DNA from: Cliona cf. orientalis
Lineage: Eukaryota; Porifera; Demospongiae; Clionaida; Clionaidae
Length of the DNA: 64,000 bases
Assembly: GCA_963930775.1 (NCBI GenBank)
Contig: OZ005703.1
Coordinates: 7,936,001-8,000,000 of the forward strand
Reading direction: 5' to 3'
The position numbers and the translations under genes are program-made. The notes under the pieces are model-generated. The model was not told the DNA's origin and did not search any database. It was given only the letters and a program-made list of their open reading frames with translations. The stretch's first letter is position 1; the number at the start of each line of letters is the position of its first letter. Of the stretch, positions 8,062 to 58,759 are shown in pieces.

Positions 8062-11000
8062 CAAAGTGAAAGTATGCCCTACACAATCAAAGGGCATGTT
8101 TGTGTCACTCACAAACAATAATGTTTCCAAATCTGTTAAGAGGTTTCCTTCGAGGCTCTGTGGCGTAGCTGGTGCTGTGGCCATGCTCACCACGGTCAAG
8201 GGCCTACAAGAGAGAGGACACAGAGAGAGAGAGACAGAGAGAGAGAGAGAACACGAGTCATGTATGGACACAAGGGCTGCGGTGTGTATTTATCACCATT
8301 AGCAAATACTTTCTTTGTAGGCACAAGGCACAAAGATAACAGAGGCTAAGCTATTGAAAGTTAGAAGGGCTACAAAAAGCAACTTACCTCATAGAGCTCC
8401 TTAAACGGTTTGTTCGAGTTGGAATGAAGTTCGGAGACGTACTCCCCAAATTCAGGAATGGGAATGGGCCTTGATTTCACCATCTCCCCAAGGTCGATTG
8501 CTGTCTCAGCACCGTCTTCGCTGACTGTCAGCTTGATTTCTCTCTGCTCAGAGCCGTGTGAGTTAGCAGCCACTGCCTTGTAGACTCCAGAGTGTTTCAG
8601 CTCCGTGGAGGGAATGGTCAGGCTCCCGTCTGACTCAATCTCACGGGCATAGTCTGCTCTGACTGGCTCCCCATCGTGGTACCAGGTCACTGTTGGCTGT
8701 GGCTCTCCACTCACCTTGATCCTAAAGTACACTCCTTCTCCCTCAGTGATGTTAGTATCAGAGGGAAACTTCAAAATCTTTGGCTCTGTGGTTAGTAACA
8801 AAATGCACAAATGCCCCTCTTGAAATAATTTCACTTACGTTTACTAGTTGCGACTCCAAACACTTGATCTCCATTTTTCTGCTTGGAGTACAGTACAGAC
8901 GACTTAGTCTTTGACACCTCATAGGGCTTGCTGGAGCTACGCCTGTGGAGGGGGAAAATAACAGGCATGTACACACAAGCCATCACGATTAATTTTGAGG
9001 ACTTTGAATAACAAAATGATAAATTATTGAGACCCACCTTCTCAAGAACATCACCACGATTATGATTATCACAATGAGGATTATCACTACAGCCAGTCCA
9101 GCAACAGCCCCACCTGCTGCAGCCGGAGCTATATTATTACCCCCTTGTTGTGGAGATTCAGTTGGAGTTAGTTGCAAAACTATGAATAATAAATTCATGA
9201 AATAATAATATTATATCAAGAAAGGCATTTTAGAATTCACCAGACGTTAACCCACCTATATTTGCACAGACTCTTGTCACTTTTGACCGAGCATCAGGTA
9301 CTTGACAGCAGTATATCCCACTGGGAGACGTATTGTTTCTTCGATGCAGTCGCACAATACTGGATTCTCTTGTAACATAAAAATCTCCACTACTAGTGCC
9401 ACCTTCATCTCCAACATTTCCTCCACTTGGCCCAACCCACCCTCCAATATCATTACAACATTGGGTACTGTCAGTATAGCACAGCAATGCCTCTCCAACT
9501 CCTCCTCCTTCCATTCTATCTCCAATTCGAGAGACGAGAATCTCACTGTTGTTTGTAAACACTTGCCCATTCAAAGAAAGGTACACACCTATAATTATTA
9601 TACAAATAATTAATAAGTATTATTGTCATGATGTAAGAGTTCACCTGTAGTGACTCGAGTTATGGAAGAAAGTAATGCTGTATTCCCATCGAGATAAGTT
9701 GCAGTTGGCTGTGGTCTGACTTCAGCCATGCAGGTATAGTTTCCAGAGTCATTCCTCCCAAAAGATTCAAGCCGTCTGGTATAGGTGAAGGTTGTGCCAC
9801 TGCCAGTCGGTGTTGATCTGGTGGGATTACCGAGTTGAGATCCATCTCTGGACAGTTGTACATCTATTATTAGCAGTGAGCGATCAGCTGCTGCTATTGC
9901 TGAATTAAACTCCAAAGTACAGGTCAAAGTTACATCAGCTCCAAACATCACAATTTCAGAAGCACCACCGTTTGATAGCGCAATAGAAGAAAGAGTTGGA
10001 ACTATATTGATACAAGCACATGATAGCATTATATAATATGTATTTTATCTAAAACTCACTCGTAATCCTGACACTAAAAGGATTAATATTCATTGCTACG
10101 ATAGTTCCTTCGAGGTACATTGAACTGATGGTGACTTGACAAGTATAGTTAGCGGCATTAGACAATAGTAATGGAGATAAGGAGAGATCAGAGTTCATTC
10201 CAATTTGTTCACTACTGTTCTTTGTCCACATATACATGACATTGTACATGTTATCAGGTCTGAGCTGTTCATCTCCAGATACACTACAGGTCAGTTGATA
10301 AGATAGCCCCGCAGTTGGACTCATTTCACCATCAGTGATCTGGACTGACACAGAGGGAGCTGAAATCAAGAGTGCAGTGTGCATGTACAATGTAGGATAA
10401 TAATTACATAAGATCATGATGAATGTTAGGTTGTAGTACCATTCACTGTGATGTTTACTGATTCAGATAAGAATGCTAATCCACCAACACTTGCGTTGCA
10501 TGAGTACGAGCCATTGTCAGACTGTCCTATTGGTCTAAACTGCAGTTGGCTTGTAGTAGCATTGGAGATGATATTCAAATTTGGCCTGCTCTCAACAACT
10601 GGTGTCCTGCCATCAGGTGGTCCCTTTAGCCATTGAAAGCTTTCAGCTTGAGAGCCACCTGCTGAACACTCCAGTGTGTAGCTCTCACCAGCAATGGGAG
10701 GGTCAGATGGGATTGTGATGGATGCACCACCTAAAAGAAAATATCGTTAATTCAGCATGGCACATAATATTACTATAGTCAACATGGAGCATACCGATGT
10801 TCACACAGAGAGTTTGATTGGTGTTAGTAGTATCAGGTACCTCACAACAGAACTGTCCAGTTGGTGATTCAACGTCACTGGGTCGATTCAAGGACACCTC
10901 TCCATTAGCTCCTCTGGTTCTGTAAAATGCCATGGTTGAAGTAGTCCCTTGCACTAGTGCTCCATTTGGTTGGTACCACTCTCCAAGTGCAGGGTTCTGA

Positions 11001-18345: not shown

Positions 18346-21300
18346 ATGAAGATGGTGCTGTTTGGTGGTAAACTTGGACGGGTCTTCTCTTTGGCGCTGC
18401 TATTGCTAGTGACTGCACGTGTTTCAAGACAACAAGGTATGTACGCGGCTGTGTTCAGTATGATGCACCAGTACCATGTACCACATGCGCCAGACTCCCT
18501 CGAGCTCAATAGCTGAGGGTCTTATACTTAATATGCTATATGATTGGGAAGGTAGCGTTTTCTTTCACATATGCAGTTGGTGTCTATCTGAGGTATCGAG
18601 GAGAGACCTTACCCAGTGACAGCTTTGTGGATAGTGATGATGTCTTAAACATTGGAAGTCCTGATATTGCTCCAACAAATAGGAACCCTGGCAGTAATGG
18701 TGCAGCATTGGAGTGTATAACTGACCTAGTAGACTGTTGTGGTACAGAACCTGACACACCGTCAGGTATCATGCCTACTGAGCGTGGTGACTGGTTCTTT
18801 CCTGATGGGAACAGAATTGAATTTTCTAATGGTGGTGCACGGTTTCTAGCAAACAGGGGTCCAAATGAAGTCATAAATGGACAACAGTTTAATGGCTCAG
18901 TTCGTCTCTATCGTAGATTCAGTGATGTACCAGGAAGAGGTCGTTTCCGCTGTGAGCTACCCAGTGCTGCTAATCCCAGTGTTAACCAGATCCTCTATGT
19001 GAACATTTGTGAGTTTATTAATTATTAGCTATGTGACTAGTGTGTACCAATAATGTTATAATAATAATATTATTACATGTTCTTCATTATTTCTACAGTG
19101 AATTTTGGGGTCCGTTTTAATCTTCCCCATATGACCTTCTCTCCCCCCGCTGGCTCCACTCCTCCTATTGCTGGGCAGAGAGGCTACTCACTGACATGCT
19201 CAACAATTCTCAATAGTGATTCCAGTGTTGATCCTGAACGTCTACCAGTCAATGTCCCTGCACCGAGGTTTGTGTGGTCCTTTGGTTCAAGTGGCAGTGA
19301 TCCTCTTCCCTCTGGTGTCACTGATATGGGAACTACTAGCAGTAATAATATTACCTTCACCAGTACTCTGCAGTTTTCTCGACTGAGTCAGCCTCTGCAT
19401 GCAGGGAACTATACATGTCGACTTGGGCCTGCACGACTGGTGAATAATGTTATAATAGCTGTAAATGGTAAGTTCTCTGTCAGTAAAGATCATATTAATA
19501 GTAGCACTGAGGGCGATCGTGAGTGGATGTTATTGATAGACTATGAGCAGTTCAGTGTGTTGTGATCACAGTAGTCTGAATATACAGACACAGAGAGAGA
19601 AGAGCTACTCTAAATCAATTGTATTATAATATGTAGCTATCTCGTTGCATGCATGAAGGAGCATCTCTCTTTTTTGTAGCCAGTTCTTTTCTTTTGCTCT
19701 TTCTCTAGATCCGGCCATCTCAGCCATGGTAACTGCTAATCTCAACAACCCCATAATGGTGGGACAAACTGACCACACTCTAACTTGTGATGTTTCTGGA
19801 GCTGATGGTCTTACTGACCGAACAATAACCTACCAGTGGACCAGAGATGGACGAACAATACAAAGTGGCAGCTCAAATACTTTTGATTTCTCTTCTCCTC
19901 TTCAACTATCCCTAGCTGGACGAAGTGTATATACTTGTAGTGCCAGTGTTGGCTCTAACTTGCTAAATGCTAACATCGATGCATCTGCTGGAACTACTCA
20001 GACTGTGACGATTCAGAGTGAGTTAACAATTCAATGCCATAGTAGCTGTCATAGTGGCGTAATTATAATACTTTTTTCCAACAGTTCCAGACCCACAGTC
20101 TGTTACTCTCACTACTAGCCCTGACAATATTCTGAATGGATCTCTTGTCATGGTGAACTGTTCTGTGGTGTTGAACTCAATAAGAGAAGAAGATCTGTCG
20201 TTGCTGAATGTATCAGCAGAGATCTCCAGGAATGGGACTATACTAACACAGACTAGTCAATCCATGGATGGTACAACCTTTAACTTTGGAGCCACTGTGA
20301 ACTCTTTCACTCAGAGTAATGTTGGAAGCTACATCTGCACAGCTACTGTTAGATCAGCACTATCCTCCCAGTTCCTCACTGGGACTGGACAAGGGACGTC
20401 GCCACTCGTGAGACTGACAATAGGTAAGCGATCGAGCTACACAAACACCCTGAAATTGACTATTATGTAATGACTGTGCTCTGTGACTCTATCATCTTTT
20501 TTGTTAGGAATCCCGCCTACTTCTCCTCCTTCTCCCAGAGGTGGTAGTAGTCAGGCTGGTGCCATTGCTGGAGGTGTCATTGTTGTCATCGTGGCACTGG
20601 CTGCAGTGGTTGTGGCTGTAGTAGCCCTGCTGTTCTGGTTCAAGTAAGTCGTGTGACTATCTCTGCAGCGACATGTATGTGTATAAGGGTGGTGGGAATG
20701 TCATTCTGACCCGAACCAGGACTGACACTAGATGTACTCTTCACCTTTTACACGATGTTATTGTTATGATATTGTGTTTCTGTGGAAGCAGCTGAATGGC
20801 TTCCCCTCCATAGCTAGAATATTATTATAGCTGTGGGGTTGGGCGTGTCAGAGATATGCATCCATATGCATATGCAGGTGTTGATAAGGGGGTAAGATGT
20901 TTCACTTAGAAAATTCCATGAGGGGGGAATCAACCTCAGGGGTCCCCATGCTCCCCACCCTCTAAATAAAACAATACATAGCCGTAGAGTTAGTTTCTTG
21001 TCAAATTTTCATGTATCTCTCCTCCCCCTCCCTTAGGAAGAGGCGAACCCCAGTGCCGTACAAGCAGGCCTACGGTGGATCTAAGCCGCCAGTTGCCTAC
21101 ACCAGACCACTCAGAGCTGGTGATGTCGCACTCACCGGAGCAACTAAAATCACAAGTGAGGACAAAAAAAACATTTTCTGTTACAGGTCCACCGTAGTTT
21201 CTGACTGGGATTGGAATCTGACAATATTTAGTTAGCTTGTATAGATTGTGATATACCAACCAGAATCTGGTACAAAATCTGAGAAAAGGTCCATATCAAG

Positions 21301-22153
21301 TTGAACGGTTTTTGTTTATCTAACTAAAGTACCACCAGTTAGAATATTGCAGTCTTGCTATATAACTAAGTGGAGTAGTATCTGCTTTGGTGTGTACAAT
21401 TTTGAGATAGTTTTGTATTTTAGTTATGTTTTGGGAGAAATTCATGGCTGAATGATCGGTATTTCTGCAGAACCAACAATCACCAAATTTCCCTCTGATA
21501 CAAACATCACTGAGGGAGAGGGAGTGTACTTTAGGATCAAGGTGAGTGGAGAGCCACAGCCAACAGTGACCTGGTACCACGATGGGGAGCCAGTCAGAGC
21601 AGACTATGCCCGTGAGATTGAGTCAGACGGGAGCCTGACCATTCCCTCCACGGAGCTGAAACACTCTGGAGTCTACAAGGCAGTGGCTGCCAACTCACAC
21701 GGCTCTGAAGAGAAGCAGGTGAAGTTGACGGTCAGCGAAGAAGGAATATCTTCAACAGATGCTGGTGCTATGAACGGAATGGTGTCGTCCCGTCCCATTC
21801 CCGTTCCAGATTTTGGGAAATACGTCGCCGATCTTCATGCCAACTCAAATCAACCTTTTAAAGATCTTTATCAGGTTTGCGTTTTCAGTTCACCTAAAAA
21901 TAACTACCAAGTTTATCGATGATTATGAACAAACAAATAACTGTTATTTTAATAACCACAATTCTTCTTGTCAATATTCAATTCTACATATATGTACATC
22001 ACCACCTTCATTACCTGGTACCCACAGGCTCTGGACACTGGAGAGGGAGGACACAGTATTGAATACGCCACCAACCGTGAGAGGAAACCCCTCAACAGAT
22101 TTGGAAATATCGTTGTTTGTAAGTCAAAAAGACTTTTATTTTCTCTGTGTGTC

Positions 22154-22225
<72 letters not shown>

Positions 22226-23183
22226 AGGCATGTAGACTTTTATTTTCTGTGCTGGTGTGAGTGTGTTTGCACATATATGCTTATGTGTCTTGAATACTCT
22301 TAATTTTATTGGCAAAGAAACATGTATTTGCCCTACCCTTGTTGATGTCACAACATTAGGTAGCTTTGATGTTAAAAATTAGTGCTTATAATAGCAAGTG
22401 TGCTAACGTGAGGGCAAGAGATCATGGAAGGTTGGAACACTATTTATTATCTCGACTAGGTACCATGGTAGAGTGAATCTATGTTGTGAGGCAGCCATCA
22501 AGAGGAGGCCCTTCTTCACTATAGTGCTTCTGGACAAGTGTAGAGTTCAGACAGAATACCACTCCATAAGAAGGTTGCTTCATTGATGATCCTCCCCTCC
22601 CCCCTTTTGTGAGGGTAGTGAGGCCATGAAGAGAAGCAGTTGATCTGCTGCTGGCTTGATTTCTTCACCTCCCTTCCTCCATTAGCAGGGTCTAGGTGGC
22701 AATCTGGTCAGCTTGTTAGCACACCAAGCTTTAGGATGTTCTAATCTGACATAAGATTACCTTTTATAGAGCTTCCATGATTGAGCAACCCTCACAAACC
22801 ACACACCATACCTTTAATAGCTACACTAGTAAGAGTTTGGTGGTGGGTTCCCTGCATGTGAGTGGTTGACATGTGTGGACTTCCTCTGTGAGTCCAGGGC
22901 CCAGGGCCTTGTGATGTGTGAGGAAGTGAGGGCTCCACCTCAGCCCTTACTTGGTGCTCACCACAGAATTAACCAAAATAATCCATTGTTTGTCTACTAC
23001 AGAATTTACATGTGTCTTGTTCATGAAGCTGACTGTTTTAGGTAGACAGCTGCATGGTCCCGTGCCTTCCTGCATGATGGTAGGGTCTTGTTTTCTTATG
23101 GAAACACAGCAGCCCTTCCACGTACACGAAACACGCTCACTGTCTCCTTCAGTCGCTCAGGCAAGCAGGCAGTCTCATCATGA

Positions 23184-23215
<32 letters not shown>

Positions 23216-23911
23216 ACAAACTACTGGTTTCTTGTCCGTTTCACTACAACTAGGAATCCTGTTTAGTTTCACTAACTGTCCCTCTGCTGTGAGTATACTG
23301 GCAAAGCCCCTTACTACAGGGATACATGTACAGGTACATGTGCGTGCTACATGTACCTGTACCTGTACCTGTACATGTACATGTACATGTACAATAATTG
23401 TACTGTTCATGTTACATGTGCACTGAGGTGTGTAAGGTCATAAATAAGTCCATTTTATGAAAGGTACTGCACTATAATGCTATTGTTGACCTGTTTGCTG
23501 TCGATAATGGTTGATTGGTCATGCATAACCAGAGATAATCACTGATTCCATCAAGTACTGCTTGCTACAGCTCATCATAGTCACACATCCTACAAACACC
23601 GTGCCCTTTCCTTGCATACATAAGTGACCTATATACACAGACTCGCCCCTAGTTGTGTTAGTGTTTATCCTAGAATGATTATGTCTTCCTGCAGATGATG
23701 ACAATCGCATTGCTCTGAAGCCTCTGCCTGATGTCAGTGACTGTCAGAGAGACTACATCAACGCCTGCTATGTCGACGTACGTTTGTTGACCCGAGTCCT
23801 TTGATCTTTAAACGGAAACTGTTAAAGTTTACCATTCTATAAACACCCTCACACACTCACACACTCACACTCACACTCACACACTCACACTCACACTTCA
23901 CACACTCACAC

Positions 23912-23968
<57 letters not shown>

Positions 23969-24708
23969 TTCTTTGTATTTCAGGGCTACTCCGTACCAAA
24001 CAAGTTTATTGCCACTCAAGGTTAGTTATGTCAACTCCAAACTCACATTTCACCAATGGCTAACTTATCTTATACGATGTCATGTACTGGTAGATCCTAA
24101 AGGCGGGGGGATTATATTACTTTATGTGACTGTACTGCTGTCCTGTATAGTATGAACCCTAGCTTGCTCTTGTGTATCCATTTGCTAGCACAGGCAGAGC
24201 CACTTGACTTGAATGTGAAAGTATTAAGCATACGATATCGGCATGCTTGAGATAGTGTTGGGCCAACAATTGCTGTGTACTGGAACGACGCACCATCACA
24301 GTGTTCAATCGATGTTGATCTATGTTTGTTAAGTGGCTCAGTTCCCTAGCTACGTACAGTCTTAAGTGGCCATCAGTACTAACAGCCGGCTAAGTACATG
24401 TAGGTAGTGTAGATCACTACAGCCTTCTACAGCCAGTTAGCTTGTAGTTTAAGTGGTATAGTGCCATTTCAATCCTTACCTTTATTAGCATCCACTTCTC
24501 CTCATGTACTATTATGTGCGACTACTGTACATGCAGTATCACCATGGTACTGCAAATTTTGCGCCGTATATAATTATAGTGTAGTATGTTCAGGCAGCTA
24601 TCAGCTTGTGCTTGTATGTTAAGTGGCATAATTCATTTTAGCGTGCCTTCTTCCAAGCTCCCACCTCCCTGCTGATCATAGGTACGTAGCTAGAGTAAGT
24701 GTGTACAG

Positions 24709-24743
<35 letters not shown>

Positions 24744-27700
24744 TGTAAACAAGAGTATTATTTCACACCCAGCTAAAGTGAAAAGCTTGAGCCACGTGTG
24801 GAAAGCAATAACTGATCATTTGTAGTACAACAGCACTAGATTGTGAGATTATAAACAAAAGCTGCCAACCCCCCACCCACTCCCTCCCTCCCTTGCTGCA
24901 GGGAACTGTTGACACAGAAGGCTAGAGTAGCTATAGAGTGTGGTCTTAGGCCAGCTGGTGAACATGCCAGGACAAGGTGTACACTCCACTCTCTTTGTCT
25001 TTGATGTCTCCCATTGCCTCTGAGTCAAGTGGTAGAGTGTGTGGGTTGCAGTTTGCCTCTGGAGTTATATAAGCAAAGGGTTTCTTTCTCTCTCTCTCTC
25101 TCTCTGGCTTGTATTGGTGTCGGCTGTCGCTGTGTGGTTACTATAGAATGCTATCAAATTGCATTTGGAGGAATTCTGTGAAGTGGTCTCCCAAAGTGCA
25201 TGGCTATAGCCTCTAAGTATCACTCACCCACTGTGTGTGTGTGTGTGTGTGTGTGTGCTTGTGTGGGAGTCAGTGTTATGTGAAGCTTTACGAGGTCTTC
25301 TAGAATGTCGGTGAGTCAATCGTCCATTCAGCCCTGGCCTGTCCGACTATCCAACCATTTCCTACCGCTAGCCCCACTAGCGCTGTTGCCCTCGGCTCAA
25401 AATGATGCGTGCATTTATGTATGATATATGATAATAATTAGCTGAGTCAGCGGAATAGTATGGTCTGTTGTTGTGTCAACCAGGCAGTGTGAATATTGTT
25501 ATCCTCCTGAGCATGTGACTGGAGGTATTGTGTCTAATTATAGCTTAGGCCTTAATTGGTTTCAACCATATTTGGAAGTTGCTGATTCTACACGTACAAT
25601 GTCATGTATATACATGTATGCATGTGTAGTCTTTTTTAGCGATCATAAAAATTAATTATTATAGTGCCGTACATGTTCTCACTACTGAAGACCTACAGTG
25701 TGTTCAAATACAGGTACTCCTGTTGTAAAATATAGCGTTCCTCCTCTTCACCCCACGCTAACAAACTCTGTACCATCAAAACAATCTAGGCTTATCATGC
25801 ACGGTGCTAATTCATTGCCTAGTTCTGTTATGGTTGATATGAAACTGTTCTGGTGTTGCGTCTGTGGCTGGCAGCCCCCAGCCTACCAGTGTTTCCTTAT
25901 TTGAGAGGCTGGGGGTGATTTTAGACGGAGCATTGGGAAAAAAATTATCGATCTATGCATGTTATTATATACCTGCATAGAGGTGTGCTGTGTACTAACC
26001 AGCACTTTGCTTTTCTTAAGAAAAAACAACAAACAAACATGCATAGTATGAGTATACTATATAGTACACTTTATATGTATACCTTTATTGATTAAAAATG
26101 GCAATTTTGCAGTACGGTCTACATGTACCTTCATAACCTCCAAATTAACAATATTTCTTATTTACATATGTACATGTACGTATGCCAATCACTGGCAGAT
26201 TTCAATCCACTAATATCCCACATACATTGTGCATAAGTTGGTTAAGCTGTTATTGCAGTGTGCGACTGTTTTGCATAACATCATATTACGAGTTGCCTTT
26301 GATATTCCCAGTAGTTTAAGCATGCTCTTGGATGTGGGCTATTGGTTAAAGGAATGTTTGCTGCTGGCATGGAGTGGTCAGCCCTCTGCTGTACGTAGTA
26401 AACCATGTTTTTGTGTGCAAAGCATGTGGTAGAGGATTGTTCAACACTGTGTAGTGGTGTGTATGGTATTTAAGTGTCCGTGAGCTCAGGTACATGTAAA
26501 GATGTACAATCGAGCATGCCAAACTTGCTTTCTACAACTGTAGTCATTGGTATATATATAATATGAGACTCAAACATACAGTAGATTACACTACCGTACA
26601 ATACCTCATACATATTACAAAAAGTCCAAAGGTCCCTAGGCGGATCACGTAATTAATATTATTTCATGCACAGTAACGATAGAGATATCGAATTATTGCG
26701 CTTTGCTCTGATACAGGTCCCCTGCCCAAGACAGTGGTGGACTTTTGGCGGCTAATTTGGCAGGAGCGTCCCCCTACCATCGTCATGGTGACCAACGTGA
26801 AGGAAGGTACTCGTATCAAGTGTCAGCAGTATTGGCCGGAGAGTGGGAAGAAAGATTTTGGACCTTTTCAAGTGACCATAACTGACCAGCAGATCTTTGC
26901 AGACTACACCATCAGAATTCTCTCTGTCTCGGTAAATTTTAGTTAAAACATCACTTTTTAGAGCAAATGTGAAGCTTTATTGTTTTCTCAACATCCTAGC
27001 TTGGTTCTGGAGGGCGTTCCCACAAGGTGACTCAATACCACTTCACTGCCTGGCCTGATCATGGAGTACCAGACTATGCCACACCCATCTTAGCCTTCCA
27101 CAGGAGAGTGAAGGCTCAGCACCACCCCTCCAGGGGACCAATGGTAGTACACTGCAGGTGAGATAGATAGCTAAATCATACCAAGCATATTATTAAATCT
27201 TTTGGTTTTGTACACATTCAGTGCTGGTGTGGGTCGCACAGGTACACTCATCACAATAGACAATGTGCTGGAGCAGATAGAGAAAGAGCAGGTGGTGGAC
27301 ATCCCAGGAGCCGTCACCAAGATCAGACAAAGAAGAATGAAAATGGTCCAAACTCATGTGAGTATCGTAGTTTGTCTTATTCCGTGCTTATATGGCAGCT
27401 ATTGTGACTGATGCTCCATTGTGCAGGATCAATTCACGTTCATCCATGATGCCATTCTTGAGTCAGTCACCTGTGGAGACACACAGATCGCAGCCACCAA
27501 TCTTCGCATGAACATATCTAAGATGAAGAAGAAAGACAATCAAAATCAACCCAATGGATTCCAGTATCAATACGAGGTATATTCATACGTTCAGGGTGTG
27601 GATTTTGGTTATTTAATTTTACATTTTCATGTTGTTTTTTTTCTGCATTAGATCCTGGAGCAGGTTTCCCCCAACCCTGATGAGGTTCACTGTGGTGGAG

Positions 27701-29450
27701 CTCAAAGCTATCCAGAGAGAAATCGCAGTGAAAAGTTCCTTCCTGGTAAGTCCCCACGCACTTTACCTTATTTGGTGACCATCAGCATATCCATGGGCGT
27801 GGCAGTGAGGATGCTTTTGCTATAATATTATGTGACCTGCTATGAGAAAAGGGACCATTCATGTTAGTATGAAATAAGATCAATTTCTATCATGACAATG
27901 GCCAACTTGCTTTCTACAAATGTAGTAGTGAGTATACTTGTATCAGTGTATTGACACCAACATACAGCGGATACACCTACAGAATATATATTATCCTCTA
28001 TGCATACTAGTACAACCTACATACGACAAACACGAAGTCCCAAATGGTCCCTTTTCTCACAGTTGGTCACATAATTATATGATGTTACATTTTTACGTGT
28101 TGGTTGATTCATGACCTTTGGGATGATTGTTTTCATATTATTTTTCTCTCTACTTTCCAGCGGATCGTTGGAGAGTTGTTCTAAAAGGAGAGCAACCTGA
28201 CTACATACATGCAGTCAACATCAATGTGAGTTTGTTGCTACTACCGCTACAGTATAGTATAGTACCCCTAACTGGAGTAAAGTTCTGTGGTAGCTTCCTT
28301 TGTAGTAGAGATTCTCTTTGCTTCGATGAAAGTGGCTTCTCTTTAGACAATATGAACATTAATTTCACTTCAAGGCTCCGAATTGATATTTCCAATCGAT
28401 AATATAATAACTATCGATATTAATTATTTGTTCCTTTAATCTTGTGTATCAACATTATGATGTGGTATAGCTACACTGCTTATTGGAAAACCACATCCAT
28501 AGCTTAAATTGATAATTTTTATGATTGAATGTCAACACTTCCTTGATTGCTTCAGTGACGGAGATTGACAGCGTGTGATGAAATTATGATGTAATGTTTG
28601 TACCTATGCAGGGCTACAAGCACAAGAGGGCATTCATAGTTGCGGAAGGTCCAATGAAGTCAACAGTGAGAAACTTTTGGAAGATGATTTACGAGCGCAA
28701 CTGTGCCGTGGTGGTGATGACATCATCCTTAGTTGAGGGAGGGCAGGAGGCCAGTGCTCAGTACTGGCCTGACAGTGGAATAGCTCATTATGGAGAGTTC
28801 GCTGTGGACCTACTGGGTGAAGAGAAACTGCAGGGATTTGTGATTAGGAATCTCAGTGTCATGGATACAAAGGTATGCTAAATACTGTCACATGATTGAG
28901 TGCGCACCATGCTAGTGGCACTTCTATATTTAACGACCTTTACCAAATCCCACACCGCATCATGGAATCGATATCTCTCCCCCCCCCCCCCCAAAATTCT
29001 TTCTTGCAGACTCAGAAAGCTCACAAAGTTACTCAGTTCCACATCACGTGCTGGAGGCCTGATGGTCATTGCTCCAACCTGAAGAGTGTCACTGATGTGA
29101 TTGAGGAGATGACCAAGGTCCAGATAAGATCAGGCAACAAACCCATTGTTGTCCACTGCAGTGATACAGTGACTCGCAGTGGAATGTTCTGTGCCATTGC
29201 CACCACCATTGAGAGATGCAAGACAGAGGGAGTGGTGGATGTGTTCCAGGTCGTCAAGGCTCTGCGAGTACAGAAACCAGGGGCTGTCCCCACTGTGGTG
29301 AGTGGACATGTGTCATAAATCATCTGTGGGCAAAATTATGTGAATTTTTCCTTGTTCCCCCTCATGCAGGAAAACTACAAACACATTTTCGAGACAGCTT
29401 TGGTGTATCTGGAGTCTTTTGATACCTACGCCAATTTCCAGAACATCTAA
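18346..29450 (+). CDS. RPTP gene B: intact Ig-type receptor tyrosine phosphatase
   Basis: 20 exons: 18346-18436, 18577-19008, 19099-19467, 19709-20017, 20085-20423, 20508-20643, 21037-21155, 21471-21874, 22028-22118, 23695-23777, 23984-24020, 26717-26931, 27000-27157, 27222-27357, 27427-27576, 27652-27745, 28161-28225, 28612-28872, 29010-29297, 29370-29450. Phases agree throughout: 1285 residues plus stop. Signal peptide (1-27), Cys-rich Ig-like domain (31-174), three Ig domains (175-513), Pro-rich stalk and TM (about 531-557), basic juxtamembrane KRRTPVPYK (559-598), I-set Ig without core cysteines (599-733), D1 (734-1054) with TAWPDHG and [11 protein letters not shown] (Cys about 927), D2 (1055-1285) with WRPDG and [11 protein letters not shown]-terminus FQNI. 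It should remove phosphate from phosphotyrosine on cytosolic targets; the ligand is unknown. Its juxtamembrane exon differs from that of genes C-F. Confidence 0.88.
22119..23694. repeat. gene B intron 9 with microsatellites
   Basis: A 1.6 kb intron. It holds (TG)n then (GA)n at 22146-22223, (CA)n at 23183-23218, and a block of tandem ACATGT/ACCTGT hexamers at 23328-23393. No exon seen. Confidence 0.6.
23846..23966. repeat. CACACT / CA microsatellite
   Basis: A run of ACTCAC-type units that passes into a pure CA tract and ends 18 bases before the acceptor of a 37-base exon (23984-24020). Confidence 0.8.
24021..26716. other. gene B intron 11, repeat-rich
   Basis: The largest intron of the window. 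It holds GA (24711-24739), TC (25087-25106) and TG (25235-25258) tracts, a tRNA-like stretch near 25015-25080 (AAGTGGTAGAGTG resembles an A box, but no clear B box follows) and, at about 26505-26650, a truncated copy of the element at 27827-28075. No coding exon found. Confidence 0.5.
27827..28075. mobile_element. 249-bp MITE with ATTATGTGACC ends
   Basis: Lies in gene B intron 16. ATTATGTGACC on the left matches GGTCACATAAT on the right, and inside these GAGAAAAGGGACCA is inverted as TGGTCCCTTTTCTC. No ORF. Partial copies lie in a gene A intron (4674-4935) and near 26505-26650, so this is a repeat family. Confidence 0.75.
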
Positions 29451-29819: not shown

Positions 29820-32800
29820 ATGGCGCGTGCTGATGGTCACTTCTGTCTGGGGCTACTTCTGATGGCTTCACTGGCTGCTGGAGCTCAACAAGGTAGCAAG
29901 ACTGATAGTAAGATAATCCCTGGCTGACAAAATTTTTAGACTAATACCCAAAATGTACAATCATGCATCCAGATCTCTAGTATTAATAAATAATAATTAT
30001 TATGCACACACATCATTAGCTGGTGTCTCTCTGAGGTTTCAAGGAGAGACCTTACCCAATGACAGCTTTGTGGATCTTGATGATGTCTTGAACATTGGAA
30101 AGGGTCCTGCTCCAACAAATAGGAACCCCCGCAGTAATGATGGACAAGGTGCAGCATTGGAGTGCATAACTGACCTAGTAGACTGTTGTGGTAGAGAGTC
30201 TGACACACCATCAAATATCACGCGCACTGTTAGTGGTGACTGGTTCTTTCCTGATGGGACTACAGTTGGGTCTGGTAGTGGTTCAGTGTTTCTAGTGAAC
30301 AGAGGTCCAAATGAAGTCATAAATGGACAGCAGGTTAATGGCTCAGTTCGTCTCTTTCGTAGATTCAGTAAAATACCAGAAAGAGGTCGTTTCCGCTGTG
30401 AGCTACCCAATGCTGCTAATTCCAGTGTTAATCAGACTCTCTATGCTAATATTTGTGAGTTTGTTTCACTTAATGTATTAGCTATATTTTATCGAGTACC
30501 TTACTGTAGTGAATTTTGGATTCAAATATGATATTGATCATGTGACCATCTCTCCCTCCACTGGCTCCACTGTCCCTACTGTTGGGGAGGCATACTCACT
30601 GACGTGCTCATCAACTCTCTTTAATACCAGTCGTCTAAGTACTATAACCTCTGGTGTACCTTTACCAAACTTTCAGTGGTTCTTTAATGGCAGTACCTCA
30701 CTCCCCTCTAATGTGACTGATATGCCAACTGTTATAAGCAACTCCACTAGCGAGACCTACACCAGTATTCTGCAGTTTTCTCCACTGAGTCTGTCTCATG
30801 CAGGGATGTACACATGTCGACTTGGACCTGGAAGACTGGTGAAGAATGCTACAGTAATAGTGAATGGTATGATAAGACTAGTAGCATACACAAATTCTAA
30901 ATAATTATAGCCATAAATCTAATAATAATTATTATGACACTGTATGTCAATAGCTCCACCCAATCGTGGTAACAGCTAATCTCAATGCACCCCTAATGGT
31001 GGGACAAACTGACAAGATTATATTATTATACTTGTACTGTACTAACTGTACTCACTTTGAATGGTCACCATTCGACTGTTAGTAGCCATCACTGGATGAT
31101 TCAGTAAGGCTGAGGTGACATTGCATAAGTATAGTTTCCAGCATTAGACATGCTAAGTGGAGTGAGGGGTCGAGTTGTTGAGTTATCAACTTGAGTCTGG
31201 CTGTTTCCATTCTTAATCTAAATTATCACTCATTGTTAGGCCATTCCAGCTAAACTTGGAATCTTTAATTATAAGCTTGGGGGATGGGGGGAGGGGGGAC
31301 CCTGGGGACGAGGCTAGAATCACGGTAACAAAATTGAAATACATAATAATTATTACATATATACACTATTCCTATAGTCCCAGATCCACAGTCCGTCATT
31401 GTCAATAGCAGCCTTGGAAGCATGGTTACTAATGGATCTAATGTTACTCTGACCTGCTTTGTACAAATGGGTGAAAATGTAACTTCAGCCCATCTTGAGT
31501 CACTCATGATGGTGAATGCTTCAATAATCAAGCCAGATGGGACTGTACTGGTCCTATCCAACCCAAAGATAGAGGGAACAGCCTACAAGTTAACCACTCG
31601 AATAATCTCCTTTGGTGATGATGATGTTGGAAATTACACCTGCAATGCTACAGTCAGGCCACTACCTGCAGTTTACCTCACTGGAATGGGTCAACTTGTG
31701 TCTAGTCCTTACGAAATAGTAATAGGTACGTGAAAAACTGAAATCTCGCCCTGTTCTACGTATGTGTGTGTGCTTTATAATAGCGCTCCCTACTACCTCT
31801 CCTCCTCCTACCATTCAATCACCCCTCAATCCAAGTGGCAGGACTGACACTGGTAGTGGTAGCAATTCAGGTGCCATTGCAGGAGGTGTGATCGTTGTCA
31901 TCATAGCACTAGCTGCAGTGGGGGCCACGGCTATTATAATCTTAATATTCATGTAAGTTTCATCACTGTATCATCAGAGACTACTTTATAATATTATATC
32001 TGGCCTACTGGCACAGGAGGAGGAGGAGATCAACAGCATTTTACAAGCATGCAACTGTACCTAGTGTAAAACAACGCCCTCCAGTCCCTGCTGCTTACAG
32101 TGGCAAACAGGTCAAGAAGGATGATATAGTATGCATTGGGTTGGACAATAATAACAGTAAGTATAGCTTACTTACAAGTAACCCTCACTTACTAAAGGTT
32201 TATGTCGTGCTTAATTACCAAAACATGAGCTTTCCGACACATGTTTGGCAGAGGATAGGGGAGAGTTTTATAAATGAAATGTGTAGAAAATTTTTCCCTA
32301 TCCTACACATTTCCTATATACATGAATGAAATCTGAGTTTTTATCTAGAGCCTGGATTTGGAATATTAATTTTACAGACCCACAGATCACAAAGTTTCCC
32401 TCGGATACAATTGTCACTGAGGGAGAGGGAGTGTACTTTAGGATCAAGGTGAGTGGAGAGCCACAGCCAACAGTCACCTGGTTCCACGATGGGGAGCCAG
32501 TCAGAGCAGACTATGCCCGTGAGATTGAGTCAGACGGGAGCCTGACCATTCCCTCCACGGAGCTGAAACACTCTGGAGTCTACAAGGCAGTGGCTGCCAA
32601 CTTACATGGCTCTGAAGAGAGGGAAATCAAGCTGATGGTTAATGAGGAGACGGGGACTTCGACAGCCAGTGCCATTGGTGAAGTGGTGTTCTTCAGGCCC
32701 ATTCCCATTCCTGAGTTTGGGAAATATGTTGCTGAACTTCATGCTAACTCAAATCAACCTTTCAAAGATCTCTACCAGGTTAGGCTTCAAAAGAATTTCC

Positions 32801-36701: not shown

Positions 36702-39700
36702 ATGGCGCTTGCTGATGGTCTCTTCTGTCTGGTGCTACTGTTGCTGGGTTCACTGACTACTAGAGCTCAACAATTGCAAGGTAGTTACTCTAATATTATT
36801 ATTATACTGATATAATATTATTATAGTGAGATTTAATAGATCGTATTGACGTACGTTAGATAAAGCATATCCATGCAGATCTCTATCATTGTATTAATTT
36901 TGATGATTGTGCACACATATCTTTAGCTGGTGTCACTTTGGTTCTTCATGGAGTAACTATACCCAATGACAGCTTTGTGGACCTTGATGATGTCATGTAC
37001 ACTTCTCCTAGTGAAACGAATAGAAGGGCTCCTCCATCAAATAGGAATCCCAGAGATGAATCACTGCAGTGCATAACTGACCTAGTAGACTGTTGTGGTA
37101 CAGAGTCTGGCACACCATCAGGTATCATGCGCACTGTTCGTGGCGACTGGTACTTTCCTGATGGGACTACAGTTGAATCTACCGCTTCTGGAGCAGTTTT
37201 TCTAGCAAACAGAGGTCCAAATGAAGTCATACATCAAAAACAGTTTAATGGCTCAGTTCGTCTCTATCGTAGATACGGTAATCCACCAGGAAGAGGTCGT
37301 TTCCGCTGTGAGCTACCCAGTGCTACTGATCCCAGTGTTAACCAGACACTCTATGCCAGTATTTGTGAGTTTCACTTGCTATGTTATAGCTAATACTTCA
37401 TTGAGTACTCTACAGTGAGTTTTGGATTCCGTCATGATATTGATCATGTGACCATCTCTCCCTCCACTGACTCCACTACCACTACTGCTGGGGAGAGAGA
37501 CTACTTACTGACATGTTCATCAACTCTCTTTGAACCCACTAGTCTACCCTCTGGTGTACCTAAACCAATGTTTCAGTGGTTGTTTGGTGGCAGTACCTCA
37601 CTTCCCTCTGGTGTGACTGCTATGCCAACTGTTATGAGCGACAGCAACTCCTCTAGCGAGACCTACACCGGTATTCTGCAGTTTTCTCCACTGAGTCCAT
37701 CTCATGCAGGGATGTACACATGTCGACTTGGGGCTGGAAGACTGGTGAACAATGCTACAGTTATAGTGAATGGTATGATAAGACTAGTAGCATACACAAA
37801 TTCTAAAATTTAATAATTAGCTATAGACAGATTTTTCACCGTAAAATATGTATACAACCAAGGGCTTATCAAGCCGTGGCTCGATAAGCCCTTGGTATAA
37901 TACTTTCATTTTTGCCAAAAGGGACGAGCCACTCTCTTCTTAATTTATTTACCGTAACAATCCAATAAGTAGGAGTGGTCACAAAATTGGGCGTGGCAAC
38001 ACAAGCCCCCCTCCCCCGCCTCCCCACTACGAAAAAGTTATTTACACCGATGGTCAGGCTGCTTCCATTCTTAATCACTCATTGCTAGGCCATTCCAGCT
38101 AAACTTGGAAACTCAAATAATTATAAGCTTGGGGAATGGGGGAGGGGGGGACCCTGGGGACGAGGCTAGAATGTAAATACATAATTACATACGCTATTCC
38201 TACAGTCCCGGATCCACAATCTGTCACTGTCACTAGCAGCCTTGGTACCATGGTTCGTATTGGATCAGATATTACTCTGACCTGCTCTGTGCAAATGGGT
38301 GAAAATGTACTTTCAGCTCATCTTGAATCACTCATGACTGTGAATGCTTCAATCACCAAGCCGGACGAGACTATAGTAGTTCTATCTAGCCCAAAGATAG
38401 AGAGAACAGCCTACAAGTTAACTACTCAAATAAAATCCTTTGGAGACGATGATGTTGGAAACTACGTCTGCAATGCTACAGTTGAGCCATCACCTACTGC
38501 AATTTACCTCACTGGAATGGGTCAACGTGTGTCTAGTCCTTTAAAAATAGTAATAGGTAAGTGAAAAACATAAACCTTGCCCTATTCTACACCATACTCT
38601 CCTCCCCGCTAATCAATCACCCTTCAATCCATGCAGGTGGCAGCGATTCAGGTGCCATTGCAGGAGGTGTGATCGTCGTCATCATAGCAATAGTTGCAGT
38701 GGGGACCGTGGCTATTATAATCTTAATATTCATGTAAGTTTCATCCCTGTATCAACAGAGACTAGCTACTTCATATTGTTATATCTGGCTTACTGGCACA
38801 GGAGGAGGAGGAGGAGGTCAACAGCATCTTACAAGCATGCAACTGTACCTAGTGTAAAGAAACACCCTCCAGTCCCTGATGCTTATAGTGGCAACCGGCT
38901 CAAGCAGGATGATATAGTGTACATTGGGTTGGACAATAATAGCAGTAAGTAGCATACTTACAAATAACCCTGGATTAGGAATGTTAATTTTACAGAGCCA
39001 CAGATCACAAAGTTTCCCTCGGATACAACTGTGATTGAGGGGGAAGGGGTGTACTTTAGGATCAAGGTGAGTGGAGAGCCACAGCCAACAGTGACCTGGT
39101 ACCATGATGGGGAGCCAGTCAGAGCAGACTATGCCCGTGAGATTGAGTCAGATGGGAGCCTGACCATTCCCTCCACGGAGCTGAAACACTCTGGAGTCTA
39201 CAAGGCAGTGGCTGCCAACTCACACGGCTCTGAAGAGAGGGAAATCAAGCTGATGGTTAATGAGGAGACAGGGGCTTCAACAGCCAGTGCCATTGGCGAA
39301 GTGGTATTCTCCAGGCCCATTCCCATTCCTGAGTTTGGCAAATATGTTACTGAGCTTCATTCTAACTCAAATCAACCTTTCAAAGATCTCTACCAGGTTG
39401 GCCTTCATGAATGTCCATTAGCTATAGATAGATATCAGTTAGCTTCTTGTTTATTTGTGATCATTCCACCTACATGCATGCACCTCACTTATTCACAACA
39501 CCTTTGCTATCACTCACAGGCTCTGGACACTGGAGAGGAAGGGCATAGTATTGAATACGCCACCAACCGTGGGATAAAACCACTCAACAGATTTGCAAAT
39601 ATTGTTGTTTGTAAGTGAGATATAGAACACTTATATATTTGTATGTACATTATACAATATTATTATACCTGGCCCTTAAGTATCGTAACTATTGGGTACA

Positions 39701-45917: not shown

Positions 45918-47376
45918 GTTCTATGTATGTGTGTGTGCTTTATAATAGCACTCCCTACTACCACTCCTCCTCCTTCTACTACTCAACCATCCCTCAATCC
46001 AAGTGGCAGGACTGATACTAGCAGTGATAGCAATTCAGGTGCCATTGCAGGAGGTGTGATTGTCGTCATCATAGCGCTAGCTGCAGTGGGGGCCACGGCT
46101 ATTATAATCTTAATATTCATGTAAGTTTCATCACCGCATCAACAGAGACTACTTCTGAATCATACTAAGTTAATATATCTGGCCTACTGGCACAGGAGAA
46201 GGAGGAGGACGCATTCAACAGGAACTTACAAACAAACAGCAGCATCTAGTGTAAAGAAACGCCCTCCAGTTCCTGTTGCATACAGCAAACACTACAAACG
46301 GGATGACATTGAGTACATTGGATTGGGAAACAACAGCAGTAAGCACAGCTCTATTCATATGATTAGAAACAGCCCTAGATTTAAAAAAAATATTATCTCA
46401 AGAACCACAGATCACAAAGTTTCCCTCTGATACAACCGTCATTGAGGGGGAAGGAGTGTACTTTAGGATCAAGGTGAGTGGAGAGCCACAGCCAACAGTG
46501 ACCTGGTACCACAATGGGGAGCCAGTCAGAGCAGACTATGCCCGTGAGATTGAGTCAGACGGGAGCCTGACCATTCCCTCCACAGAGCTGAAACACTCTG
46601 GAGTCTACAAGGCAGTGGCTGCCAACTCACATGGCTTTGGAGAGAGGGAAATCAAGCTGATGGTTAATGAGGAGACAGGAGCTTTAACAGCCAGTGCCAT
46701 TGGCGAAGTGGTGTTCTTCAGGCCCATTCCCATTCCTGAGTTTGGGAAATACGTTGCTGAACTTCATGCTAACTCAAATAAACCTTTCAAAGATCTCTAC
46801 CAGGTTAGACTTCAAAAAGAATTTCCATTAATATATCAATATCAATTACCTGGTACTTGTATAATATTATTATACTTTCAATATCATTTCTCCTAGCTAC
46901 ATGCATGCACCTTGCTTATTCACAACACCTTTGCTATCACACACAGACTCTGGACACTGGAGAGGAAGGGCACAGTATTGAATACGCCACCAAACATGAG
47001 ACAAAACCACTCAATAGATTTGCAAATATTGTTGTTTGTAAGTGAAATTTAATAAATATTTTGACCAGATGTAAGACACTCAATATTATTATACCTGGCC
47101 TTTAAGCTTAAAGATTAAAAATTTAATGTTGGGCACATTATTATGGATGGCACTTTTCCTGCAGATGATGACAATCGCATTGCTCTGAAGCCTCTGCCTG
47201 ATGTCAGTGACTGTCAGAGAGACTACATCAACGCCTGCTATGTCGATGTACGTGAGTTTATTGTTGATTTTTCATTAGCTACTCAAACAATCACAACTAC
47301 TATATTTTAGCTTGTTTGTCTGTGTTCCCAAACTTACAGGGCTACTCTATTCCAAACAAGTTCATGGTCACCCAAG

Positions 47377-56860: not shown

Positions 56861-58759
56861 GGCCATTCCAGCTAAACTTGGAAACTTTAATTATAAGCTT
56901 GGGGGATGGGGATGGGGGGGGGGGGGGGGGGGACCCTGTGGATGAGGCTAGAATGTAATTATATACACTATTCCTACAGTCCCGGATCCACAATCTGTCA
57001 CTGTCACTAGCAGCCTTGGAAGCATGGTTCGTATTGGATCTAATGTTACTCTGATCTGCTCTGTTGAAATGGGTGAAAATGTAACTTCAGCCCATCTTGA
57101 GTCACTCATGATGGTGAATGCTTCAATCACTAAGCCAAATGGGACTGTAGTGGTTCTATCTAACCCAAAGATAGAGGGCACTGCCTACAAGTTAACCACT
57201 CAAATAATCTCCTTTGGTGACGATGATGTTGGAAATTACACCTGCAATGCTACAGTCAGGCGATCACCTTCTGCAGTTTACCTCACTGGAATGGGTCAAC
57301 TTGTGTCTAGTCCTTTAGAAATAGTAATAGGTAAGTGAAAAACTGAAATCTTGCCCTATTCTACACCATATTCTCCTCCCCCCTAATCAACCACCCCTCA
57401 ATCCAGGTGGCAGGACTGACACTGGCAGTGGTGGAAGCAATTCAGGTGCCATTGCAGGAGGTGTGATCGTTGTCATCATAGCACTAGCTGCGGTGGGGGC
57501 CGCAGCTATTATAATCTTAATATTCATGTAAATTTCATCACTGTAATAACAGAGACTAGTTCATATTATTATATCTGGCCTACTGGCACAGGAGAAGGAG
57601 GAGGAGGAGGTCAACAGCATCTTACAAGCAAGAAACTGCACCTAGTGTACAGAAACACCCTCCAGTCCCTGCTGCTTACAGTGGCAAGTGGGTCAAGCAG
57701 GATAATATAGCATACATTGGGTTGGACAATAATAGCAGTAAGTAGCATACTTACAAATAATCCTGGATTAGGAATGTTAATTTTACAGAGCCACAGATCA
57801 TAAAGTCTCCCTCGGATACAACTGTGATTGAGGGGGAGGGAGTGTACTTTAGGATCAAGGTGAGTGGAGAGCCACAGCCAACAGTGACCTGGTACCACGA
57901 TGGGGAGCCAGTCAGAGCAGACTATGCCCGTGAGATTGAGTCAGACGGGAGCCTGACCATTCCCTCCACGGAGCTGAAACACTCTGGAGTCTACAAGGCA
58001 GTGGCTGCCAACTCACACGGCTCTGAAGAGAGGGAAATCAAGCTGATGGTTAATGAGGAGACAGGGGCTTCAACAGCCAGTGCCATTGGCGAAGTGGTAT
58101 TCTCCAGGCCCATTCCCATTCCTGAGTTTGGCAAATATGTTACTGAGCTTCATTCTAACTCAAATCAACCTTTCAAAGATCTCTACCAGGTTGGCCTTCA
58201 TGAATGTCCATTAGCTATAGATAGATATCAGTTAGCTTCTTGTTTATTTGTGATCTTTAGTTTACATTCCACCTACATGCATGCACCTCACTTATTCACA
58301 ACCCCTTCACTATCACTCACAGGCTCTGGACACTGGAGAGGAAGGGCATAGTATTGAATACGCCACCAACCGTGGGATAAAACCACTCAACAGATTTGCA
58401 AATATTGTTGTTTGTAAGTGAGATATAGAACACTTACATATTTGTATGTACATTATACAATATTATTATACCTGGCCCTTAAGTATCGTAACTATTGGGT
58501 ACATTATTGTATGGTGCCACTTTTCCTGCAGATGATGACAATCGCATTGCTCTGAAGCCTCTGCCTGATGTCAGTGACTGTCAGAGAGACTACATCAACG
58601 CATGCTATGTCGACGTACGTGAGTTTATTGTTGATTTTCCATTAGCTATTTAAACAATCACAACTATAATATACTATAATATTATAGAAATAACTTGTTT
58701 GTCTGTGTTCCCAAACTTACAGGGCTACTCTATTCCAAACAAGTTCATGGTCACCCAAG

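Follow-up and report, generated by a model that had tools for sequence, protein, structure and literature searches.

Results

Gene structure and topology of the central receptor phosphatase

The window, meaning the whole stretch of 64,000 nucleotides analysed here, corresponds to C15:7936001-8000000 of the demosponge Cliona cf. orientalis. The odCliOrie1.1 assembly of this sponge comprises 217.17 Mb in 307 scaffolds according to the available part of its description (PMC12639293), and our genome searches covered 216.8 Mb in 149 contigs. The central gene of the window (18346-29450) has 20 exons and an open frame of 1285 aa; its model was assembled by hand from the DNA sequence by matching GT-AG splice phases. 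The encoded protein consists, in order, of a signal peptide, outer Ig-like exons, a transmembrane (TM) helix, a basic exon, an I-set domain, an active-type D1 and an altered D2, as follows:

18346..18436, + strand: exon 1, signal peptide (gene model; hydrophobic residues 3-23)
18577..19008, + strand: exon 2, outer Cys-rich exon, no Pfam match at E<=1 (gene model, Pfam)
19099..20423, + strand: exons 3-5, three outer Ig-like exons with a Cys pair in each (gene model, Pfam)
20508..20643, + strand: exon 6, transmembrane helix (Kyte-Doolittle 3.31)
21037..21155, + strand: exon 7, basic stop-transfer stretch of 11 residues and juxtamembrane linker (net charge +8)
21471..21874, + strand: exon 8, Cys-free I-set (residues 1-87), linker and D1 start (Pfam, fold, phases)
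22028..27357, + strand: exons 9-14, D1 with WPD and a ten-residue motif (gene model)
27427..29450, + strand: exons 15-20, remaining D1, D2 with its own ten-residue motif, and stop codon

The signal peptide, the single TM and the cytosolic PTP (PF00102, 2.4e-143, in two stretches) are those of a receptor-type PTP. D1 carries the WPD loop TAWPDHGVP and an 11-residue HCX5R segment and is predicted to be of the active type. Outer Ig was matched by Pfam in the window gene, with exon 4 alone among exons 3-5 passing the cut-off, and no FN3 match was found in this gene. Exon 2 shows a C..CC..C pattern and has many relatives within the cluster described below. A pseudogene or chance reading of the central copy was ruled out, the frame being open over 20 exons.

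The initial annotation had placed an I-set exon after the TM and its basic residues and before PTP D1, and order, strand and GT-AG phases in the central gene agree with this. Topology was read from hydropathy and exon order, on a genomic sequence basis. The spliced protein has two hydrophobic segments only, at residues 3-23 and 525-561, and a second TM, sought by hydropathy in this protein, was not found besides the signal peptide and the TM. Since these are the only two such segments, the cytosolic position of the I-set after the TM, also proposed in that annotation, is well supported. N-glycosylation sequons number 7 in the 499 outer residues and 1 in the 88-residue I-set. Loss of exon 8 by itself breaks the frame.

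An I-set fold without the core cysteines

The I-set exon was recognized by Pfam PF07679 at 1.7e-20 (73.3 bits, cut-off 23.7), and all eight I-set rows from other lineages also scored above the cut-off. An AlphaFold model built with the six near-identical window rows gave an Ig-like strand order over residues 1-90, with a mean pLDDT of 66.2; ten-residue blocks of this part ranged from 56 to 90, seven of nine lying at 74-90, and the linker was low. When this model was submitted to Foldseek, 569 PDB matches were obtained at E<=0.001, the best being MLCK Ig8 (6.2e-09), with MLCK IgCam3, Robo1 Ig5 and APEG-1 at the top as well and PTP-delta Ig1-3 and titin M3 nearby. Because cytosolic and outer domains are mixed among these matches, an inner or outer origin of the I-set cannot be told by fold alone. 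In a PDB profile search, titin ranked highest, closely followed by DSCAM, Robo and neurofascin. The retained Ig fold that had been read from the letters is thus borne out by profile, strand order and structural matches.

A core Cys pair is usual, though not obligatory, in I-set domains. In the central I-set, the B-strand position is Ile and the F-strand position is Ala while the core Trp (W of VTWYHDGE) is kept, so the replacement of both cysteines noted initially is correct. Among the cluster genes, Cys was found at the B position in none of 15 (one copy is without that strand) and at the F position in none of 16; outer exons 3, 4 and 5 retain both Cys in 15/15, 13/13 and 16/16 aligned cluster genes. 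The pair is absent from all eight main groups of loci, five of which carry one or two other Cys. The domain therefore resembles titin-type cytosolic I-sets in combining the Ig fold with the lack of a core disulphide and a cytosolic location, the latter judged by hydropathy and order only, but it sits in a receptor phosphatase and not in a cytoskeletal or sarcomeric protein.

The EF loop carries a family mark. His-x-Gly replaces the usual D/N-x-G before Tyr in 11/11 main-clade rows and in 0/9 others, the fuller form E-x-[KR]-H-x-G is found in 10 of the 11, and His-x-Gly is retained across 8 groups of loci. Lying in a loop and not in the core, this position is the leading candidate for a functional surface. 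In the general Ig topology, the EF loop lies at the C-terminal end of the domain, and here that end would face D1.

Copies in the window and in the C15 cluster

All six copies of the I-set exon listed in the initial annotation were recovered by tblastn (78-100% identity over 134 aa). Besides the central one, they are:

8388..8785, - strand: copy 1 I-set exon (TM match 9034-9171, - strand)
32378..32778, + strand: copy 3 I-set exon (TM match 31786-31950)
38996..39396, + strand: copy 4 I-set exon (TM match 38606-38731)
46403..46803, + strand: copy 5 I-set exon (TM match 45951-46118)
57789..58189, + strand: copy 6 I-set exon (TM match 57376-57525)

Over C15:7870001-8070000, we counted 16 genes with an I-set exon, and all 16 have an upstream TM match and downstream D1/D2 exon matches on the same strand. 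The exons have an acceptor AG in 15 cases, and a donor GT and a length of 2 mod 3 in all 16. A scripted join of TM, basic and I-set exons was open and in frame in 15 of the 16 genes, with the caveats that the g15 donor falls inside the helix and that the donor chosen in the central gene differs from the hand model. The remaining gene, g11, is missing the first 35 I-set residues and gave no scripted join. It is one of three decayed-looking copies with damaged or shortened I-set exons (g11 at C15:8023294, C14:6.285 Mb at C14:6284650, and C3:4.713 Mb at C3:4713362).

Two further observations were made in this region. In the exon between TM and I-set, an ITIM-like I-x-Y-I-G-L was counted by eye in 8 of the 16 cluster genes (g05-g08, g10 and g13-g15, C15:7.97-8.05 Mb); Cys replaces Tyr in three more genes and Phe replaces the first Ile in one. 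Common descent may explain this stretch. On the minus strand, C15:7888521-7933056 (L040-L045) holds outer-exon and TM-like matches in succession, with neither I-set nor strong PTP exon matches; these are perhaps receptors of the same outer type that lack a phosphatase tail, in the manner of paired receptors.

Related loci on other chromosomes

Searching the genome with the window domain pointed to further loci on C3, C4, C8, C12, C14 and C16 and at C15:7.22 Mb. A TM-like segment was found upstream of the pre-PTP I-set at all 28 readable loci on seven chromosomes, comprising the 16 cluster genes and 12 others, these assignments resting on hydropathy of open frames rather than on spliced models. 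Among the 150 PF07679 matches and 150 PTP matches listed, 21 of the I-set matches are followed on the same strand by a PTP match at no more than 4 kb, and 25 by one at no more than 7 kb, although three of these 25 (C15:450.9-453.4 kb), unread, may be outer domains. The same was true, within 4 kb, of 12/12 further matches from the window-domain search.

When the C12 domain (I-set only) served as query, pre-PTP I-sets made up the best 29 of 36 matches, ahead of any other I-set of the genome. The C8 domain with its D1 start gave the best 29 of 33 as pre-PTP I-sets, the D1 start helping the ranking, and with the window domain C1 I-sets ranked among the C4 members. We estimate that the genome holds about 32 internal-I-set receptor phosphatase genes, 3 of the 7 or 8 C4 copies having been read. 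A single exon encodes both the I-set and the D1 start in the C15, C3, C16 and C8 lineages; in the C4, C14 and C12 lineages they lie in separate exons. The outer parts also vary, with Ig and FN3 in C16 and C12 and FN3 in C8 (Pfam, exons chosen by eye).

As a control, the RPTP at C15:4.058 Mb (L003) runs from TM through a short exon to the D1 start, with D2 exons present; no Ig exon was seen between its TM and D1, this being one of three such loci with both ends in hand. A separate gene at C8:9935930-9939607 (L001) has SH2-like exons (by eye) ahead of PTP and is of the SHP type.

Relatives outside the Cliona genome were also sought. None was found in viral_contigs (30 pattern matches) or in genome_contigs (21 pattern matches), collections that cover viruses and prokaryotes, so that this says little.

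Constraint and gene conversion

Within the cluster, pN/pS was 0.57-0.79 for outer exons 2-5, 0.14 for D1 exon 12 and 0.20 for D2 exon 19. Inside exon 8, it was 0.27 for I-set residues 1-87, 0.165 for residues 17-74 and 0.45 for the linker (residues 88-106, 70% identity). Silent sites gave a different picture, as pS was 0.046 over I-set codons 17-74, while the linker gave 0.40, the D1 start 0.29 and outer exons 2-5 0.36-0.48. This uniform tract (21521-21694, exon 8 codons 17-74) has steep edges and covers the same codons in other cluster copies; exons 13 and 19 are equally uniform at silent sites (pS 0.041 and 0.057). The near-identity of the window copies over codons 17-74 is, judging from these patterns, largely the product of exon-local gene conversion, and the apparent conservation of the I-set within the cluster is consequently inflated. 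Purifying selection alone was rejected as the cause of copy sameness, silent sites over these codons being nearly as uniform.

Constraint was also gauged against loci outside the cluster. Between the cluster and the C3 locus, pN and pS were 0.096 and 0.496 for I-set codons 17-74, and 0.091 and 0.505 for exon 12. Versus C15:7.22 Mb, the I-set gave 0.074 over 0.204 (0.36) and exon 12 gave 0.099 over 0.502 (0.20). These values indicate that the I-set is under real constraint, similar to that of the catalytic exon or somewhat weaker. Exon 7, on the other side of the I-set, is variable both in length and in sequence. With linkers so loose, a tethered module fits better than a rigid one.

A LAR-like gene and the origin of the internal I-set

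A LAR-like RPTP at C15:7866000-7875500 (L060, L057, L039) also shows a TM, a basic stretch and a pre-D1 I-set. This I-set keeps one of the two cysteines, that of the B strand, and has the usual Asp in the EF loop. It is possible that it represents an intermediate or a separate capture. With this domain as query (27 matches), the I-set at C15:8.272 Mb, which has both Cys, ranked second, and I-sets of C1 and C8 were interspersed with those of the main clade; these mixed matches are the reason why a separate capture is considered. In an I-set tree of 20 rows, with long branches and weak deep support, the main clade of 11 rows is recovered at 88/92 (not starred). For the pre-D1 position of 12 rows this tree requires 2 changes, since the LAR-like row is placed with an outgroup row; a single change suffices in 2% of bootstrap trees.

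Discussion

To our knowledge, the Ig domains of RPTPs have been taken as the outer, ligand-reading part only. Here, in an early-branching animal, a large set of receptors has an Ig domain as a constant inner component, and the core cysteines of this domain have been lost in step with the reducing compartment. We found no description of an internal Ig in a receptor phosphatase in the portion of the open-licence literature seen, and the part consulted of a paper on RPTP evolution mentions none (PMC5336234); an earlier published description is possible.

The layout, the hydropathy topology and the constraint are read from the sequence, and from them we infer a role as an interaction module. The cytosolic part of these demosponge type I receptor tyrosine phosphatases opens with an I-set lacking the core disulphide, which variable linkers join to the membrane on one side and to D1 on the other. 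In our working model, this I-set, as the constant module, would bind a cytosolic partner common to the receptors (a scaffold, a substrate or a second receptor). Receptors with many different outer parts might in this way bring the same partner and D1 together at a ligand contact. D1 could then dephosphorylate the partner or its complex, and D2 would serve as a non-catalytic platform. A constant module for docking or assembly, on a tether between TM and D1 and with a mechanism that is conjectural throughout, has in our opinion about an even chance of being right. We prefer it because the I-set is constant as opposed to the differing outer parts, because the linkers are loose and because the domain was not seen in another RPTP of the genome; dimerisation, a lid and a spacer follow in this order.

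Dimerisation would make the I-set a lateral assembly module whose copies pair and set whether the D1 domains are dimers. Ig domains of titin-type proteins can pair with each other, those of MLCK and titin are among the nearest folds, and the I-set lies just outside D1 in a receptor able to cluster; we nevertheless hold this to be unlikely. A little less probable still is that the I-set acts on D1 as a lid or clamp, keeping phosphatase activity low until a ligand shifts it. The single exon common to the I-set and the D1 start in four lineages would suit such a clamp, as would the family mark at what is probably the D1-facing end. Since by general Ig topology the conserved EF loop would face D1, a contact between I-set and D1 is as easy to imagine as one with a foreign partner. 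However, constraint within exon 8 is lowest in the linker to D1, which in other copies is shorter than the central one by up to 9 residues, and separate exons encode I-set and D1 start in the C4, C14 and C12 lineages.

The domain might also be a passive spacer or the relic of a captured outer I-set with no binding role, as the missing core Cys pair, the cluster identity due mostly to gene conversion, the weaker constraint versus C15:7.22 Mb and the three decayed copies could suggest. Contrarily, the purifying selection seen when the C3 and C15 loci are compared resembles that of catalytic exon 12, and the family-specific His-x-Gly has been retained in 8 groups of loci, and we rate this reading slightly below the lid. 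Finally, the layout could be an artefact of exon reading, the I-set belonging to another transcript, or isoforms without exons 6-7 having the I-set outside; exons 6 and 7 add up to 255 nt, so skipping both would leave the frame intact. This is very improbable, since the TM-basic-I-set join is open and in frame in all cluster genes but one, the order recurs at unlinked loci, and loss of exons 6-7 would put both phosphatase domains outside too.

If the docking module is real, an internal Ig would be a new coupling of recognition to phosphatase output. Receptors constant inside and variable outside offer a ready set for testing self/non-self or symbiont recognition in sponges. A bolder and rather doubtful extension is that the roughly 32 phosphatases form one receptor class with swappable, diversifying outer parts and a shared cytosolic Ig socket, kept uniform by gene conversion, which would feed a common inhibitory recognition output (allorecognition or symbiont sensing). 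If true, this class would be a recognition output in an animal without lymphocytes.

Among known systems, the type IIa RPTPs (LAR/PTPRF, PTPRS, PTPRD) share with the window gene a single TM, outer Ig, a D1 with the ten-residue motif and an altered D2. PTPRS (2fh7) is the best PDB match of the window D1-D2 (6.4e-147), and D1 starts with a PIPV or PPIQV segment as in type IIa enzymes. The window gene differs from them by the I-set between TM and D1, by its ten-residue D2 motif, and by the lack of an FN3 match, although its C16, C12 and C8 relatives have FN3. The cytosolic I-sets of titin, MLCK/telokin, palladin and APEG-1 belong to cytoskeletal proteins and not to receptors, and the His-x-Gly EF loop is absent from both titin rows compared. 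An echinoderm NLR with an 'intracellular Ig domain' is not a membrane receptor phosphatase but, as far as the portion of the source consulted goes, likewise has a cytosolic Ig in an immune protein (PMC13133943).
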